A stretch of DNA of 64,000 nt, from positions 160,005-224,004 of IMG/VR virus record IMGVR_UViG_3300041411_000178; one strand, given 5' to 3'. The notes beneath the pieces were generated by a model that saw only the letters and a program-made list of their open reading frames with translations, ran no database searches and was not told where the DNA came from. This document shows positions 2,998-49,816 of the stretch, in pieces. The stretch is from a virus. The position numbers were made by a program, and so were the translations under genes. The stretch's first letter is position 1; each line of letters starts with the position of its first letter.

Positions 2998-3007
2998 GGC
3001 AGACAGC

Positions 3008-3619
3008 ATGGAATACGAATTTGATGAAAGCCTGTCGCCGTTCCGACAGGAGTTGCATGTACTGGATTGGTTCCAACGCAATTTTACAACCAATCCCAAG
3101 AAACTGAAGAAGATGAACGAACGGGTTCGTCCGAAGCTGCCAGACTGGATCCAGAAGAGCCTGTGTGACACCCTGGCGCGTTCTAGCGACCCGGTTGGGT
3201 TCATGCGTCACGCTTTCCGCGATCTCGCCGCCTACCCGGCTATCATGGAGCGTCTGATTGCCGAGGGTAACCACGGCATGATCATGATGGGTCCTCAAGT
3301 GTTCGGTTTCAGTCTCGATACTAACGAGAAGTGGCTGAATGCTGACAAGACCGGCAAGTGGCACAAAGATGATGAAAGCGACATCATCGACAAGGCTCTC
3401 CAACACTGGATGATCAAAGAACGTCGCCGTAAGGTCACGTGTCGCATTACTTTGTTCGCTGAGTTCGGTTTCTCTGGTATCCCGTTCCAAACTACGCACA
3501 GTCTCAGTGACCGTCTGTGGAATGAACTGCTTCCGCACTGGAAGAAAGAAGACGAGGCTCTGGCTAACCTGGAACTTCAGTACCTGCTAAACCCCGAGTT
3601 AAAGGAACAAGAGCAATGA
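3008..3619 (+). CDS. Paralogue family A, member 2 (unknown, 203 aa)
   Basis: Starts at ATG 3008 after GAGGCAG, 10 bp beyond the stop of member 1. It keeps all the family blocks (NFTTNPKKL, IAEGNHGM, NEKWLNADK, FGFSG) and adds about 40 C-terminal residues beyond FGFSG, with a charged helical end. Its stop overlaps the next ATG (ATGA). A longer reading frame upstream exists but would overlap member 1 heavily and has no ribosome site. Confidence 0.8.
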   Translation: MEYEFDESLSPFRQELHVLDWFQRNFTTNPKKLKKMNERVRPKLPDWIQKSLCDTLARSSDPVGFMRHAFRDLAAYPAIMERLIAEGNHGMIMMGPQVFGFSLDTNEKWLNADKTGKWHKDDESDIIDKALQHWMIKERRRKVTCRITLFAEFGFSGIPFQTTHSLSDRLWNELLPHWKKEDEALANLELQYLLNPELKEQEQ

Positions 3620-3972
3620 CTGATAAGCCACGTTTTGATTATGCAACTGCCGACATCGTAGGCGAGCGTTTGGGTGCTATCTTTAACGGACTCGACAAAG
3701 AGCACGCCATGGCTGCTGTTGAAGAGTTCATTGATGACTACACCAACAGCATCTTTGGGCTGAGCGTGATCGATGCCTTGCGTAAGGTTAAGATGCCTGA
3801 GCAGGGTCGTTCGCAATGCATTCAGACATTGGCTAAAGGTCGTGCTGTATTGGTGTCTGCATACGGCTTTAATGTCAAGACAGACACCAAGTGCAAGTGT
3901 GGGCGGGCTTTCATTGTTCTGGATGAAATGACTCGTGAAGACCGCGATAAAGAAATGGAAAGTCTGGGGTAA
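3616..3972 (+). CDS. Unknown 118-aa protein with CxC motif
   Basis: Overlaps the previous stop by 4 bp (ATGA). A mostly helical N-terminal region is followed by a short C-x-C-G segment near residue 94, which could bind metal. There are too few ligands visible to call a zinc finger. Unknown family. Confidence 0.75.
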   Translation: MTDKPRFDYATADIVGERLGAIFNGLDKEHAMAAVEEFIDDYTNSIFGLSVIDALRKVKMPEQGRSQCIQTLAKGRAVLVSAYGFNVKTDTKCKCGRAFIVLDEMTREDRDKEMESLG

Positions 3973-3977
3973 TAACC

Positions 3978-4205
3978 ATGTCCGGTGCAAAGGTTCTTAA
4001 TCGGGTATGTCTTCCGATCGACTACACCAAGATTGATCCTGACGCGTTAAGCGATAACTTCCAGGACATAGAGAAACGCATGATCCGGGAGTTTATCAAA
4101 GCACACCCTGAAATGGGGCCTATGGAACTCCAGAAGGCTCTTCTTGAAGCTAAGGGCTACGAGGTATCACACCAGGTCATCCGCGTACAACGCGAGAAGG
4201 ACTGA
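3978..4205 (+). CDS. Small HTH-like protein (75 aa)
   Basis: The C-terminal 40 residues read as a helix-turn-helix: a helix IREFIKAHP, a turn, a second helix MELQKALLEAKG, then YEVSHQVIRVQREK, which has the Y.VS...V.R pattern of winged or resolvase-type recognition helices. The N-terminal 30 residues are unassigned. If real it would be a small DNA-binding regulator encoded in an early-type block. The HTH call rests on pattern only. Confidence 0.6.
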   Translation: MSGAKVLNRVCLPIDYTKIDPDALSDNFQDIEKRMIREFIKAHPEMGPMELQKALLEAKGYEVSHQVIRVQREKD

Positions 4206-11203: not shown

Positions 11204-12859
11204 ATGACTTTGAAATCGACTGGGTACGTACCTCCAATGCCTACACTGGCGATGCTCGCTGATAACGGCGGCATTGTAACTGTCAACCCGGACTGGTGTG
11301 ACTGGTACGAACAAGTGTTTAACGAACCTGCTGGCGCCGGCTATGTCAAAGGGCGCGAGATCATGAACCAGGTTGATCAGTCGTACTCCGAACTGCTCAG
11401 CATCCGTAGCGAGGCCATGAAGAGTGCGATCCACTCGATGATCTCCAATGATCCAAACCGTCCTACCGTGCGCTTCAAAAGCATTGCAGAGGCCGAGAAG
11501 TCGTTCAAACTCTCCGGCAAGCACGCAATGGACTTCGACAAAGAAGAACAAGTGTTCACGTTTGACGGCTACTTCAGCGTCAGTGACATGGAAGCCATCC
11601 TGTTCATCCGTCGTGCGGAAGAACTGATTGACAAAGCCAAGGAACGCTTTCCGGGTTTCTCCGACTGCGCTACTGGGAGCTACAAAGAGCTGGACATCAA
11701 TCAGTTGATGCAGGTCATGCAGCCATCTTTGTCGAGAACGGACATTGATTCCGAGATTTTCGCTACTCCTGTAGCCGAATCGCCAAATCGCGCGTACATG
11801 TTCCCTGACGCCAAAGCCAAAGCTTCTCCGATGGCCGAGCAGTTCAACTCTGTTGTTGAAGCACACGCAACGCTGGCGGAATCCGGTATCCTGCGTCAGA
11901 ACGTGATCCGCACGCCCGGCGTAAACAATCTGGTACTAGACGGGTACTTCACCCCGAAAGATCTGGAAGCGCTGCTGTACCTGTACCGCAACAACGATCC
12001 GATGGTGTTCCCTGAAAAGGATGCCAACGGTCTGCCAAAGGACAGTCCCGCGGGTGATAAGCTGAACCGCAAGACCTTCATGGAACTGCTGGGTGTTACG
12101 CCTGAAACCAGCAGCGACGAAGTTGCGGAGAAACTCCGTGCAGCACGCCTTGTTCTGGAAGCAAATCTTACCGGACCTGTTGCAGGCCAATATTTAGACG
12201 GCCTGGGTAAGTTGTACGACGATGCTCTGGAACACCCAAGTTCGGCTAAAGCTCTTCTTCGTCCTACCGGCGATGATTTTGAGAAGAAGCTGCATGCGGA
12301 GATTGTTGGCGGTAGTCTGCGAGAGATCCCCGACGAACTGCCTACCGGTAACGCTGTCCTCAACCGGTTGATAACGGAAGGCGGCGGTCTGCGTCGTGGT
12401 GAATGGGCGGGTGAAGCTGCTGCCCGTACTGATATCAACCGCACGTCTATCGTGGGCGGTACTCGTATTCACTGCTTCGAAGAGGGTGACGATGACTTCC
12501 CAATGATGACCGCTCTGATCAAGAAGATTGAAACCTTCGAAGAGCAGTTCGGTGGGTTGTCTTTGGCTGACTTCCGCGCGCAAGTAGACGCACCATGGGC
12601 TGAAGGCGGTGTTGCCTACTTCAAGAAGGAAGACGGTCACTTCAGCCTGGTGTTCGAAAAGAACGAGGTGGTCGTCTCGCTGTTCTCGTTCAAAGTGGCT
12701 GAACACTCCAACCCTCCGGGTCAGATTGTCTTGTGCGAACACGCGCCAAGCCTGGTCAACTACACCACTATCTCCAGCTTCTTTGATCTGTTCATCAGCA
12801 TCACGCCTGAGCAGGTAAAGGAAGCTAAAGACCGAGCTATCGAGAAACACGGTCAGTAA
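11204..12859 (+). CDS. Large unknown protein with internal repeat (551 aa)
   Basis: A single-gene unit between promoter site 2 and a perfect hairpin. It contains NPDWCDWY at residues 28-35, shared with the 9357 protein. It also has an internal duplication: FTFDGYFSVSDMEAILFI.R (about 117-137) matches LVLDGYFTPKDLEALLYLYR (about 242-262). The segment SPMAEQFNSVVEA (about 208-220) recurs almost unchanged in the likely virion protein at 61749. The C-terminal third looks beta-rich. No known domain recognised. One of the largest early-type proteins here. Confidence 0.8.
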   Translation: MTLKSTGYVPPMPTLAMLADNGGIVTVNPDWCDWYEQVFNEPAGAGYVKGREIMNQVDQSYSELLSIRSEAMKSAIHSMISNDPNRPTVRFKSIAEAEKSFKLSGKHAMDFDKEEQVFTFDGYFSVSDMEAILFIRRAEELIDKAKERFPGFSDCATGSYKELDINQLMQVMQPSLSRTDIDSEIFATPVAESPNRAYMFPDAKAKASPMAEQFNSVVEAHATLAESGILRQNVIRTPGVNNLVLDGYFTPKDLEALLYLYRNNDPMVFPEKDANGLPKDSPAGDKLNRKTFMELLGVTPETSSDEVAEKLRAARLVLEANLTGPVAGQYLDGLGKLYDDALEHPSSAKALLRPTGDDFEKKLHAEIVGGSLREIPDELPTGNAVLNRLITEGGGLRRGEWAGEAAARTDINRTSIVGGTRIHCFEEGDDDFPMMTALIKKIETFEEQFGGLSLADFRAQVDAPWAEGGVAYFKKEDGHFSLVFEKNEVVVSLFSFKVAEHSNPPGQIVLCEHAPSLVNYTTISSFFDLFISITPEQVKEAKDRAIEKHGQ

Positions 12860-45185: not shown

Positions 45186-48029
45186 TTAGAAAAGGGAAAG
45201 AACGCTGTTGGTCAGTTTAAGCGGTCGCCCGGTTGGTTCTTCGCTGATATCGAGACACTCTTCACCCGTTACGTTAGCAAACGCCACGTGACCGTCCATA
45301 CGACCCATCAGAGCATCCACCTGTTCTTTACTCCAGGCCAAGATGTCCAGACTGCGTGTGGTGATGTTGAGTTTGTCGCCTGTGTCCATGTCGAGCATCC
45401 GGAAGAAGCATTGAGATGCATCCTGTCCGGTACGCCAGATACGACCTTTTACTTGTCGCAGTTCATGTTCCCGGAATGGGGAATCCAGCCCGATGATTTG
45501 GTTGGCCATTAGCAACGGATAACCTTCTTTCAAGCTGTTATACACAGCCACCAGTGGGTTGGTCCGTTCGTCATCGGCAAACTGCTTGATGGTTGGCTCA
45601 CGATCACTGCTGTTCTCACCGAACACCGATACAGGCTTGTAACCCTGAGCGGTTAAGTAATCAACCGACAGTTTCAAGGCTTCAACGTAAGAGGTAAAGA
45701 TGACTGTCTTCTTCTCTACGTCGTCGATGTACTTAGGCAGTTCAGCATGTTCGATCAGCGACTTGATCGCATTGATTCGAGCACGACCCAGTACGTTACC
45801 CAATGCTTCACCACGGATCTTTAATGCCAGGTACTTAACAGCCGATTTCACGTTACGGAACTCAGCCAACTCTGGGCCTTTCAAACCACGCTCGATATCC
45901 TCCTCTACAGCCTTACAGAAGGCGCTGTCAGCAGCGTCCGTAAAGTTGTTGTACCCTTGGGTGCGGAACCGATTAACGATCGCCTTGTAGCGCTGTAGCG
46001 CGGCCAGCTCTTTAGGGTGCTTGAGAACGGTGTATTCATAGCGTTGAACCACATCGTTATAGAACACGATGAACTCTGCCATGTGTGCATTGTAGAAACG
46101 AACCCGCTCCACGATGTACGTCTGCATTGCCAAACGAATGGCTTCCAAGGTGTATTGTTCCCCATTGGGGATTTTAACCTTGATGATTTCAAACGGAGGA
46201 GGGTCCCCCATACCGGCCAGTTCAGGGATTGAGAACTTACCACGACCAATGCGGTTAGCCAACAGCGAGATCAGCGCAGGGCGGTTACGACCATAGCTCG
46301 CCATGAAGAACTCTCTGGCGTACTTGTCGAAGTGTTTGTCGATGATGCAGGTGATGGGATAGATCTCGCTCCCAAGTGCCTTCAGCGGTGTCCCAGACAT
46401 CGGTAGAGACTCTTCGAACAACCCGTCATCCGCCAGTTCTACCAAGCGACGTGTCTGCTTAGACTTCATGTCGCTGAAGTTGTGAGACTCGTCGACAATC
46501 AGGTTGAACTGTTTCTTGTTGCGCTTCTTGGCTTCGTTGAACCATTTACGCAAGTGGTCGTAGTGATTACCCTGGAGGAACTCGTAGTGGATGACGTAGT
46601 AGTCGTAATCGTCAGTCAACAAGCGACCCGACGTAGACGTCCACACACGAGGAGGTTCTTTGAACTTGCCCTTAAAGGTACCAAGCCAAACTTCCTCCAC
46701 GAGGTTCAGAGGGCAGATGATAATGCACTTGTTATCGTTCACCAACATCGACCACATTAGCGACGTTAGCGTGTTGTGGGTTACGATCCAGTTATCAACA
46801 ATGTAGAGGTGATCTTCACTGTCAATACTGATGCACGCTGTTTCGATCTGAGGCTGTTGCTGGATGGCGACTAGCTTCAGCTTGAGTTTCATGAACTGAG
46901 TAACGTCGAGGATATCACCCAACGACAGGTTCACCAAACTGTCCACCAACCAGACCATATCACGGTGTTTGAAGTCCACCTTGAACATGTTCCCGAAAGC
47001 TTCCAGCGAAGCGATGCCACCCAGACTCCACATTAGCTTCTGGAAGTTGCTTGCGCCGTAAAGGTTGTCCATGACTGCGCAGACGCCGAACTCCGATACA
47101 TGGCAGGCTGACAGTTCGATCATGTGCTTGGCAATCTGCCGACGATCGACGTAGGAAAGTTCTGTCACTGGGTCAGCCATATGTATACCGGCACTCAGCA
47201 ACTTGGTGGCGATCTCCAACAGGTCCAGTTCAGAGGGTTCTACTTCCTCACCCACATCACCCACCAAAGGGATGTGGTAACTGAACTGATCGAAGTGGTT
47301 AACGATGTCCTTGGTCGTGGTGACGTACGTCTGACCAACAGCATGACCGTCTTGGTTCACACCAGCTTCTGCCACTTCCCACAAGTGCAGCGGATGGGAG
47401 TCAGCGGTACGACCGTCTTCAAAGGTAAAACGGAAACTCTCTGTTACGCCCTGAGGGAAGTAGCCGGTGATATTGGCAACGTTCCCCTTGGGTCCTATCA
47501 CCTGATCACCTATCTTAAGGTCACCTAGGCGCTTCCAGCCACCGGGTACTTTGACCTGTGTGCTGAGCGGCATTGCCTTACCACTACCCACCGCAGCATC
47601 CAGCAGCAATCCTTTAAGGTGATAGCTTGGGGTGATGATGGGGTATTGCTCCAAGAACTCACGTTGCTTGGGGAACGGTGTGACGTTAAGACGCTCCAGC
47701 TTCTTGAAGTCGAACTGTCTTTTGATGGGATTGACGGTGTCTTTAATCCAGGTTTCAGTTTCCAGCAGGTGTTTTAATTCTGCCAGCTCTCTACGACGGC
47801 TACGGAGGTTACGAACTTTAAGCAGTTCACCCAGGGCAAGGTGTAGTTCCACCAAAAAGAAGTTATGAACCTTGATGGAGTCCCAGGTCTCTCTACGGAT
47901 CTGCCATTTGGTGATCAGTGAGCTGCTGTAGAACTTTTCGATGTCTCGTGCCAGTGCGCCGTATGAAACTCCTGTGATATGTACAAAGACCCCAGTTTGC
48001 TTTACAGCAACTGAAAATAAGTTAAACAT
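45186..48029 (-). CDS. SF2/SNF2-type helicase interrupted by an intein (947 aa precursor)
   Basis: ATG at 48029 behind GGAGGCAGTTC; a longer frame upstream crosses the divergent gene and is rejected. After intein removal (residues 152-419) the 679-aa protein has Walker A AAVGSGKT, Walker B VDESHN (512-517), motif III SGTP, and motif VI QVKGRIWRTGQ (859-869), the pattern of SNF2-type ATP-driven DNA translocases. Role may be transcription, replication or DNA handling. Splicing must restore the ATP site, since the intein splits GSGK/T. Confidence 0.88.
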   Translation of the reverse strand: MFNLFSVAVKQTGVFVHITGVSYGALARDIEKFYSSSLITKWQIRRETWDSIKVHNFFLVELHLALGELLKVRNLRSRRRELAELKHLLETETWIKDTVNPIKRQFDFKKLERLNVTPFPKQREFLEQYPIITPSYHLKGLLLDAAVGSGKAMPLSTQVKVPGGWKRLGDLKIGDQVIGPKGNVANITGYFPQGVTESFRFTFEDGRTADSHPLHLWEVAEAGVNQDGHAVGQTYVTTTKDIVNHFDQFSYHIPLVGDVGEEVEPSELDLLEIATKLLSAGIHMADPVTELSYVDRRQIAKHMIELSACHVSEFGVCAVMDNLYGASNFQKLMWSLGGIASLEAFGNMFKVDFKHRDMVWLVDSLVNLSLGDILDVTQFMKLKLKLVAIQQQPQIETACISIDSEDHLYIVDNWIVTHNTLTSLMWSMLVNDNKCIIICPLNLVEEVWLGTFKGKFKEPPRVWTSTSGRLLTDDYDYYVIHYEFLQGNHYDHLRKWFNEAKKRNKKQFNLIVDESHNFSDMKSKQTRRLVELADDGLFEESLPMSGTPLKALGSEIYPITCIIDKHFDKYAREFFMASYGRNRPALISLLANRIGRGKFSIPELAGMGDPPPFEIIKVKIPNGEQYTLEAIRLAMQTYIVERVRFYNAHMAEFIVFYNDVVQRYEYTVLKHPKELAALQRYKAIVNRFRTQGYNNFTDAADSAFCKAVEEDIERGLKGPELAEFRNVKSAVKYLALKIRGEALGNVLGRARINAIKSLIEHAELPKYIDDVEKKTVIFTSYVEALKLSVDYLTAQGYKPVSVFGENSSDREPTIKQFADDERTNPLVAVYNSLKEGYPLLMANQIIGLDSPFREHELRQVKGRIWRTGQDASQCFFRMLDMDTGDKLNITTRSLDILAWSKEQVDALMGRMDGHVAFANVTGEECLDISEEPTGRPLKLTNSVLSLF
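46773..47576 (-). other. Class 3-type intein inside the helicase Walker A (268 aa)
   Basis: The intein begins with Ala (GSGK|AMPLSTQVKV) and ends VTHN before Thr. Block A is present (GDQVIGPKG). Block B ends HPLHLW (H64, W66 of the intein). Block F has C248 (ETACIS). Block G is T266-H267-N268. W, C and T at these places are the diagnostic triad of class 3 inteins, which use the block F Cys as nucleophile instead of residue 1. The 110-180 region has FQKLMWSLGG, a remnant resembling a LAGLIDADG endonuclease without two clear motifs. Confidence 0.85.
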
Positions 48030-48070: not shown

Positions 48071-49816
48071 ATGAGCGAAGAAAAGAAAGGTGAAGCCAGC
48101 GGTATTCCTGTGGATCTGACGGACTGGAACAGCCACATGGACCTCCTAAGCGATGTCGTTCAATTGCCCATCGGTCCGGATGACGGAGCCAAGGACGTAG
48201 CACTCGCCGGTTATGTTGCTCCTACCTACGAAAATGGCGTAGCGAACGGCTTCGTTGGCACCGAGGAAGAATGGAACGAACTGGTAGCCAAGCATCGTGC
48301 CGAGGCTCCGAAAGAAGGTTACATCGAGCAGATGGTTGTTGAAACCCACACCCCGGAAAGCTTCGGGGAACTGCTGAAAGAAATGACCACTCCAAAAGAG
48401 GGCGAAGATACCGCCACGCTTGCAGTGGGAACGATCACCGCCATCTCCCCGGAAGAACAAGGTGTTGCCATTGCCAAAGCGGCGCTGGGTGAACCTTGTA
48501 TCGGTCACTTTCTGTTGCTGGATGAAGACGGCAAACCGGCTGAGGTGGAAAGCTTTGCCAGCAGCACCAAAGAAGCCAACCTGGCCAGCAAATTCAGCAG
48601 TGCGCTGTCGGGTATGACGAGCCTGGATCAGATCTTCCCGATTCGCACCGCGCACCCCAACGACCCACTGCCGGGTTGGGCTCAGTCGCTGATCAAGTTC
48701 TATAACTTGGCGGTCTCTGACTTCCAGAGTGACAAACTGACGGTTGATCCTCGTACCGGTCTGTCATTCCCAAGCGACCTACAGATCTTCCGCTACGCTG
48801 GCATGGACGGTGATCAAGAAGTCACCTGGTTCCGCTTTCAGCTGGGTGATCAGTCTCGGTCGTTTGTTGTGCTGTCCAAAGATGTGCCTACGTTCCTCGG
48901 TCAGATGACCGAAGAGAATCCAATGGAATGGACTCACAAACGTCGTGCTTCGGCGAAAGGTTTTGGCCTGAATGTAACCCAAGCGCCTATAGAGTTGCCT
49001 CTGAGCTTCTTCCCGTTCAGCTTCGCCAAAGACCCAATCGACGACCTGTTCGATGGTGACTTTACTCAAGTCAAAGAAGTCTGCGAACGTCTGAACGAAG
49101 ACCTCCGTGGCCGTCTGGGTGAACTCAACCGTATCGCCCTGAAACTGGCAGATCTGATCCCGCAAAAGGACCATGACCTGTACCTCAGCTTCAAAGGCGT
49201 TAACGGTCTCAAGGAAATGAACGTAGCGCTGGATCGTGTCTATCCAAAGCTGCCTGAGTCCGGTGAGATCGTTCTCGGTGATGAGCCGATCAACATCTTC
49301 GAATGGTCTGCGTACAGCAAGGTCGTTCAGGTGAACGTCAAGCGCATCAGCCACGGCACTCGCCAGATCAATCGCATGTTCGACAAGTACCGTGCACTGA
49401 TCAACCCGCATCCGATGATCCAGGAAATCTTTGATACCAACCTCAAAGAACAACTGATGGCATCTAGCCACTTCCTCAACCGTGTGTACGGCTTCTCTGC
49501 TGCATACGGCGTGAAGTACATGGAAGAAGTCGCCAACGAAGTGATCAGCAAGTTGAACGCTCACGGCGGTAACATCGGCCTGGATCTGAATGAGTGGGTT
49601 GTTTACGAATACCACGAAGAAGGTCGTCCAACTCCAATCGAAAGTGAAGAGCTGGACTTCAAGAAGCAGATCCTCAACAGCTACACGCAGAGCTTCGTAG
49701 ACGCCCTCTACGGTTACCTGCTCGACGTGCAGAACCCGTACATCAAACCCTACACTTACCGTACGGTAGTGGAAGGCGATGACGGTATTGAAGTCGGTAC
49801 GATTCGTCAGGTGTAA
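48071..49816 (+). CDS. Large unknown, probably structural protein with fibre-like module (581 aa)
   Basis: ATG at 48071 after AGAGGGAAAGTG, 41 bp from the divergent helicase start. Residues 53-72 (ENGVANGFVGTEEEWNELV) match the GT...W repeat of the tail fibre. The rest is alpha/beta with a helical C-terminal half. The size, and the convergence with other probable virion genes, suggest a structural or virion-associated protein; no domain identified beyond the module. Confidence 0.7.
   Translation: MSEEKKGEASGIPVDLTDWNSHMDLLSDVVQLPIGPDDGAKDVALAGYVAPTYENGVANGFVGTEEEWNELVAKHRAEAPKEGYIEQMVVETHTPESFGELLKEMTTPKEGEDTATLAVGTITAISPEEQGVAIAKAALGEPCIGHFLLLDEDGKPAEVESFASSTKEANLASKFSSALSGMTSLDQIFPIRTAHPNDPLPGWAQSLIKFYNLAVSDFQSDKLTVDPRTGLSFPSDLQIFRYAGMDGDQEVTWFRFQLGDQSRSFVVLSKDVPTFLGQMTEENPMEWTHKRRASAKGFGLNVTQAPIELPLSFFPFSFAKDPIDDLFDGDFTQVKEVCERLNEDLRGRLGELNRIALKLADLIPQKDHDLYLSFKGVNGLKEMNVALDRVYPKLPESGEIVLGDEPINIFEWSAYSKVVQVNVKRISHGTRQINRMFDKYRALINPHPMIQEIFDTNLKEQLMASSHFLNRVYGFSAAYGVKYMEEVANEVISKLNAHGGNIGLDLNEWVVYEYHEEGRPTPIESEELDFKKQILNSYTQSFVDALYGYLLDVQNPYIKPYTYRTVVEGDDGIEVGTIRQV

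Follow-up and report, generated by a model that had tools for sequence, protein, structure and literature searches.

A probable class 3 intein with a conserved LAGLIDADG remnant in the helicase of an EL-like jumbo phage

The window, a 64-kb stretch of DNA that forms the last part of a 224 kb virus record, encodes a helicase whose ATP-binding loop is interrupted by an intein. Class 3 splicing of the helicase precursor, with a dead endonuclease remnant inside the intein, is the best explanation of this arrangement and is very probably correct. Assignment of the intein to class 3 is supported by all of the published sequence criteria, with a concordant predicted fold. The kind of intein is already known, and phage EL and its relatives carry the same intein in the same position; because the window intein would be one more class 3 example, its splicing route is the expected one. 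The features of the locus are as follows.

45186-48029, minus strand: helicase precursor ORF, ATG at 48029 to stop at 45186, 947 aa, with a GGAGG-like ribosome site upstream
47577-48029, minus strand: N-extein of an SNF2/SF2 helicase, 151 aa, ending in GSGK (Walker A)
46773-47576, minus strand: intein assigned to class 3 from its ORF, relatives and predicted fold, 268 aa, Ala1 to Asn268 (precursor residues 152-419)
47283-47576, minus strand: N-terminal splicing domain, residues 1-98, blocks A and B, predicted as the β-rich Hint half
47379-47387, minus strand: block B His64 (B:10), Leu65 and Trp66 (B:12)
46887-47282, minus strand: central insert, residues 99-230
46935-47174, minus strand: single LAGLIDADG-type repeat, residues 135-214, from hhalign and the AlphaFold2 model
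46773-46886, minus strand: C-terminal splicing domain, residues 231-268, blocks F and G
46833-46835, minus strand: Cys248 (F:4), predicted initiating nucleophile
46773-46781, minus strand: Thr266-His267-Asn268 (G:5-G:7)
46770-46772, minus strand: Thr+1, predicted second branch point, and the Walker A threonine once spliced
45186-46772, minus strand: C-extein, 528 aa plus stop, starting T(+1)LTSLMW, with the helicase C-terminal domain

The intein interrupts the Walker A loop exactly between GSGK and T; its host is an SF2 helicase of SNF2 type, the junctions reading LLLDAAVGSGK/A on the N side and VTHN/TLTSLMW on the C side. Removal of the insert in silico leaves an extein of 679 residues (947 - 268) in which GSGKTLTS aligns without gaps to four intein-free relatives (Joad, Aphrodite1, phiKp_32 and OBP), all four of which have an uninterrupted GSGKT. 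(Aphrodite1 shares its genus with Vibrio phage 2, which has the intein.) The original prediction, made from the sequence alone, had described a 268-residue insert splitting this loop and had held that its removal restores GSGKTLTS; its coordinates, length and residues were exact, and the restored loop agrees with the empty sites. The insert is real and not a chance reading, since both extein halves match the phage DNA helicase family phrog_62 (E = 9.7e-34 for the N-extein and 1.4e-63 for the C-extein) and the intein matches that of phage EL at 40% identity across its full length (E = 2e-58). Together with the Walker A loop and the phage helicase family, the C-extein contains the helicase C domain (Pfam Helicase_C, PF00271, 1.7e-07) expected of an SNF2/SF2 helicase; the match to SNF2-rel_dom (5.8e-4) is under that model's own cut-off.

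The N-extein is 90-94% identical to those of L005-L009, and the exteins are 72% (N) and 58% (C) identical to phage EL. The gene order around the helicase is the same as in EL: structural protein, hypothetical protein, opposite-strand hypothetical protein, helicase. Because gene order and extein identity both match phage EL, the source virus is, judged by its genes, an EL-like jumbo phage, a giant bacterial virus akin to Pseudomonas phage EL. The intein of EL ORF166 (gp166) shares with that of the window its gene, its GSGK/T site, the gene order, the WCT residues and a single-repeat insert, but it is 262 aa long and only 40-43% identical. The records for gp166 describe an "ATP-dependent helicase domain" or a "DarB-like antirestriction" protein, and neither annotation mentions an intein. 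EL (NC_007623) also has inteins in its RNA polymerase β subunit (gp039; 45455-46543) and in the helicase gp040 (48323-49063), giving at least four when 11687-12559 and gp166 are counted.

Tori and Perler defined class 3 inteins by Trp B:12, Cys F:4 and Thr G:5, together with a +1 residue that is Ser or Thr and the lack of a nucleophile at the first position (PMC5222942); sequence criteria are also given in PMC7891396, where 1701 such inteins were counted in 2020. The window intein has A1, H64, W66, C248, T266, H267, N268 and T+1. Residue 1 is thus Ala, with none of the Cys, Ser or Thr that a class 1 intein would have there, and in alignment with 71 relatives W66, C248 and T266 fall on Trp B:12, Cys F:4 and Thr G:5, while H64, H267, N268 and T+1 fall on His B:10, His G:6, Asn G:7 and the +1 position. 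His B:10, Cys F:4 and the Thr-His-Asn of block G were invariant among 72 distinct related phage inteins, although the Cys is part of the block F pattern by which much of this set was gathered, so that its conservation is partly built in, whereas that of His, Trp and Thr is not. Trp B:12 was present in 71 of the 72, and +1 was Thr in 68 and Ser in 4. The same residues occur in five alleles from an initial search whose patterns lay outside blocks F and G, and in the phage tblastn loci. The Ala start, the W66/C248/T266 triad and the VTHN before Thr had all been named in the original prediction, which had also proposed this comparison of block positions. One residue counts against a typical class 3 intein: block B position 7, often Asp in other class 3 inteins, is His in the window intein, a residue confined among the relatives to the EL-like clade.

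It is most improbable that the intein belongs instead to class 1 or class 2, with a displaced N-terminal nucleophile or direct attack of Thr+1 on the N-junction, and with Cys248 incidental. Some inteins with the WCT motif do begin with Cys or Ser, and that of Escherichia phage EC001 (L023, 2986-4023) combines a Cys-Cys start with a full WCT motif and intact LAGLIDADG motifs, a mixed class 1/class 3 pattern. However, Ala1 is found in all EL-like alleles, the empty sites pin the N-junction so that there is no displaced Cys1, and Cys F:4 is present in every one of the related inteins. KlbA inteins have Cys at +1. Class 2 inteins are reported only from KlbA genes (PMC3196547), whereas the present intein sits in an SNF2 helicase of a phage and is followed by Thr at +1, which led us to reject class 2 membership.

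No match to the window protein was found with the Pfam and NCBIfam intein models because the window intein is divergent, and profile and fold comparisons were therefore needed. Among PDB sequences, the intein matched gp41-1 with an engineered WCT motif (6riz; 2.4e-9) and the class 3 intein of Mycobacterium smegmatis (Msm) DnaB1 (6bs8; 4.3e-9). An AlphaFold2 model built from 48 sequences gave a confident Hint fold (pLDDT 93.2, pTM 0.90), with pLDDT mostly >90 in the N-terminal splicing domain. In Foldseek, the model matched PI-SceI over its whole length (5.6e-10), and 6bs8 was the best of the mini-inteins, with a target-normalised TM of 0.84-0.87; the predicted Hint fold thus lies closest to solved class 3 inteins. 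The Msm DnaB1 intein (PMC6195587) resembles that of the window in WCT motif, Hint fold and P-loop insertion, but it has 139 aa, no folded endonuclease remnant, a DnaB host and Ser+1. Its Cys48-Cys118 pair is redox-active; in the window intein, where residues 1-98 are free of Cys, the block F member alone is present. A redox switch of the Msm DnaBi1 kind was considered but gained no support, the other cysteines (C158 and C166) lying in the insert and C166 occurring in no other EL-like allele. A class 3 intein is reportedly also present in the Snf2 protein of Deinococcus radiodurans, an SNF2 host like that of the window, a likeness that goes by description.

Two further inteins were observed in the genome. 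The second, at G000:74084-74827 (L002), is of class 3 type and splits the GGGK/T of another SF2 helicase; it begins with Ala and has HQW and a remnant insert. The third, at G000:38065-38955 (L003), splits the terminase RQQGK/T and has the full WCT motif after a putative, unusual Tyr-Gln-Asp start. The Pfam Intein_splicing model found none of the three, and model-based annotation therefore overlooks the inteins of this genome. In a tree on splicing-domain columns, all EL-like alleles, including stand-alone orphan copies described below, formed one clade (100/98), within which the window intein grouped with L005-L009 and the orphans (100/99). The L002 and L003 inteins were far apart from it on this tree and are thus not recent copies.

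By analogy with the intein family, the 947-residue precursor would be unable to form the ATP-binding loop. The Hint fold would place Cys248 beside the K-A1 bond, which this residue, aided by His64 and Thr266, would attack, forming a branched thioester that holds the N-extein. In the next step the N-extein would pass to Thr+1 as an ester, cyclisation of Asn268 would release the intein, and an acyl shift would join GSGK to TLTS, the products being a helicase of 679 residues and a free intein of 268. Unable to home, the insert that separates blocks B and F would be retained since the fold or the rate of splicing now depends on it. The chemistry, the order of the steps, the silent ATPase and the reason for retaining the insert are all inferred. 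From the Walker A position, it is reasonable to suppose that the ATPase would be silent before splicing, as was also supposed for Msm DnaBi1 (PMC6195587).

Residues 99-230 match the second repeat of phage LAGLIDADG endonucleases with an hhalign probability of 94.8% and a score of 53.3, against scores of at most 21.2 in 100 column-shuffled profiles and 17.0 for the reversed profile, a similarity above controls that points to LAGLIDADG descent. The helix-strand-strand-helix-strand-strand-helix order of such a repeat appears in the AlphaFold2 model at residues 142-214. The GLMDTDG of active relatives reads HMIELSA, with the catalytic Asp replaced by Ser156 and the preceding Asp by Glu154, and block C, which holds the other catalytic Asp, is absent. 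An active LAGLIDADG enzyme has two repeats with a catalytic Asp in each; the window insert has one repeat and neither Asp. Loss of the catalytic residues is common to all 11 EL-like members, in which the block E Asp is variously replaced by Ser, Val or Ala. The insert is, on this sequence evidence, a conserved remnant of a LAGLIDADG homing endonuclease. In its structured endonuclease domain without catalytic aspartates it is like PhoVMA (PMC8966425), but that is an archaeal VMA intein, and the window intein is down to one repeat.

That the insert is still a working homing endonuclease, and the intein still mobile, is barely credible: L033, L082 and PA1C (L019) do have intact LAGLIDADG motifs at the same helicase site, but block C is missing throughout the EL-like clade, and Ser156 stands in the place of the block E Asp in the window. 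Other phages have intermediate or shorter forms at this site, SL2 reading LMDTCG and Vibrio phages carrying shorter inserts. The same-site intein of PA1C (3001-4040) runs over two overlapping frames, with the break within the endonuclease part, and that of L032 contains a stop codon; a split intein, a frameshift or a sequencing error are candidate causes of these interruptions.

Selection was assessed on six alleles, the window intein and five others at 78-88% identity, which showed no indels and no stops. With dS near 1 the figures are rough, but mean dN/dS was 0.057 and 0.047 for the N- and C-terminal splicing halves, 0.054 and 0.073 for the exteins, and 0.137 (bootstrap 0.086-0.189) for the central insert, the LAGLIDADG repeat alone giving 0.11. 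Since indels and stops are absent and dN/dS is low, the dead insert is under purifying selection and not drifting freely. The original prediction of a decayed LAGLIDADG endonuclease thus holds in that one repeat is left and the catalytic acids are gone, but not in the sense of free decay. The simplest reason for this conservation would be that folding or splicing now depends on the insert; a dependence of this kind is reported for TliVMA, but not for PhoVMA (PMC8966425). A dead intein that does not splice, leaving the helicase inactive or without ATPase activity, has a precedent in the class 3 pseudogene Arth_1007 (PMC3196547), and the helicase is lost from two related contigs. Nevertheless, a dead intein is very unlikely here, given the intact catalytic residues, the low dN/dS of splicing domains (0.05-0.06) and exteins (0.05-0.07), and the six uninterrupted alleles.

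In these two contigs (L024 and L025), both helicase exteins are gone, and the intein ORF is retained with all splicing residues present.

L024:2974-3807, and the same position in L025 (IMG/VR 3300046810_000100 and 3300028597_000010): orphan intein ORF, MVNIFASGK, a 265-residue intein, then SFS and stop

The contigs, of 164 and 106 kb, come from different metagenomes and have 55 differences over 6.8 kb; neither extein was found on them, but both are fragments, and a helicase may lie elsewhere in those genomes. The flanking genes are the same as those around the window helicase. Because MVNIFA is similar to MFNLFS, with which the helicase begins, and SGK to the end of its Walker A, two deletions flanking the intein would fit. 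A strong terminator-like hairpin lies 3' of the ORF; at 3833-3866 its loop is inverted between the contigs (TTGAT versus ATCAA), as if the hairpin had flipped. The orphan intein is 60-62% identical to that of the window and is predicted to fold (pLDDT 90), and relative-rate tests showed it to evolve no faster than helicase-borne copies. Between L024 and L025, the intein codons differ by seven silent and two amino-acid changes (P ≈ 0.001, from small numbers and assuming that three quarters of random changes alter a residue). A phrase search of the literature on stand-alone inteins returned no match. The only published parallel found was Arthrobacter Arth_1007, a class 3 intein pseudogene likewise nearly without exteins (PMC3196547), but in it both Cys F:4 and His B:10 have been lost, and splicing does not occur, whereas the orphan keeps every catalytic residue.

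We consider it possible, but rather doubtful, that the EL-type intein is useful by itself, that the dead half-LAGLIDADG is functional, and that one lineage kept a splicing-competent stand-alone gene after deletion of the helicase (predicted spliced leftover MVNIFASGKSFS). Under domestication, a reading that does not conflict with class 3 splicing, the insert would itself perform some task, for example DNA binding, and the intein would have been kept by two phages after helicase loss for that reason. The repeat free of indels and with a low dN/dS, the orphan with its full set of splicing residues, its unhurried evolution and its predicted fold all speak for such a role. However, dependence of splicing on the scaffold, as in TliVMA, also explains the conservation, the orphan amounts to two near-identical contigs with nine codon differences, and Vibrio alleles at the same site have a shorter insert, so that we regard domestication as somewhat unlikely.

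A second look is merited by the orphan relative and by the dead but conserved insert. Across jumbo phages, a single insertion site presents a graded series, from a full endonuclease through partly damaged forms to one silent, conserved repeat and shorter inserts. With an intein whose catalytic residues are all intact although its host gene is gone, it becomes testable whether inteins may be retained for more than rescue of the host protein.
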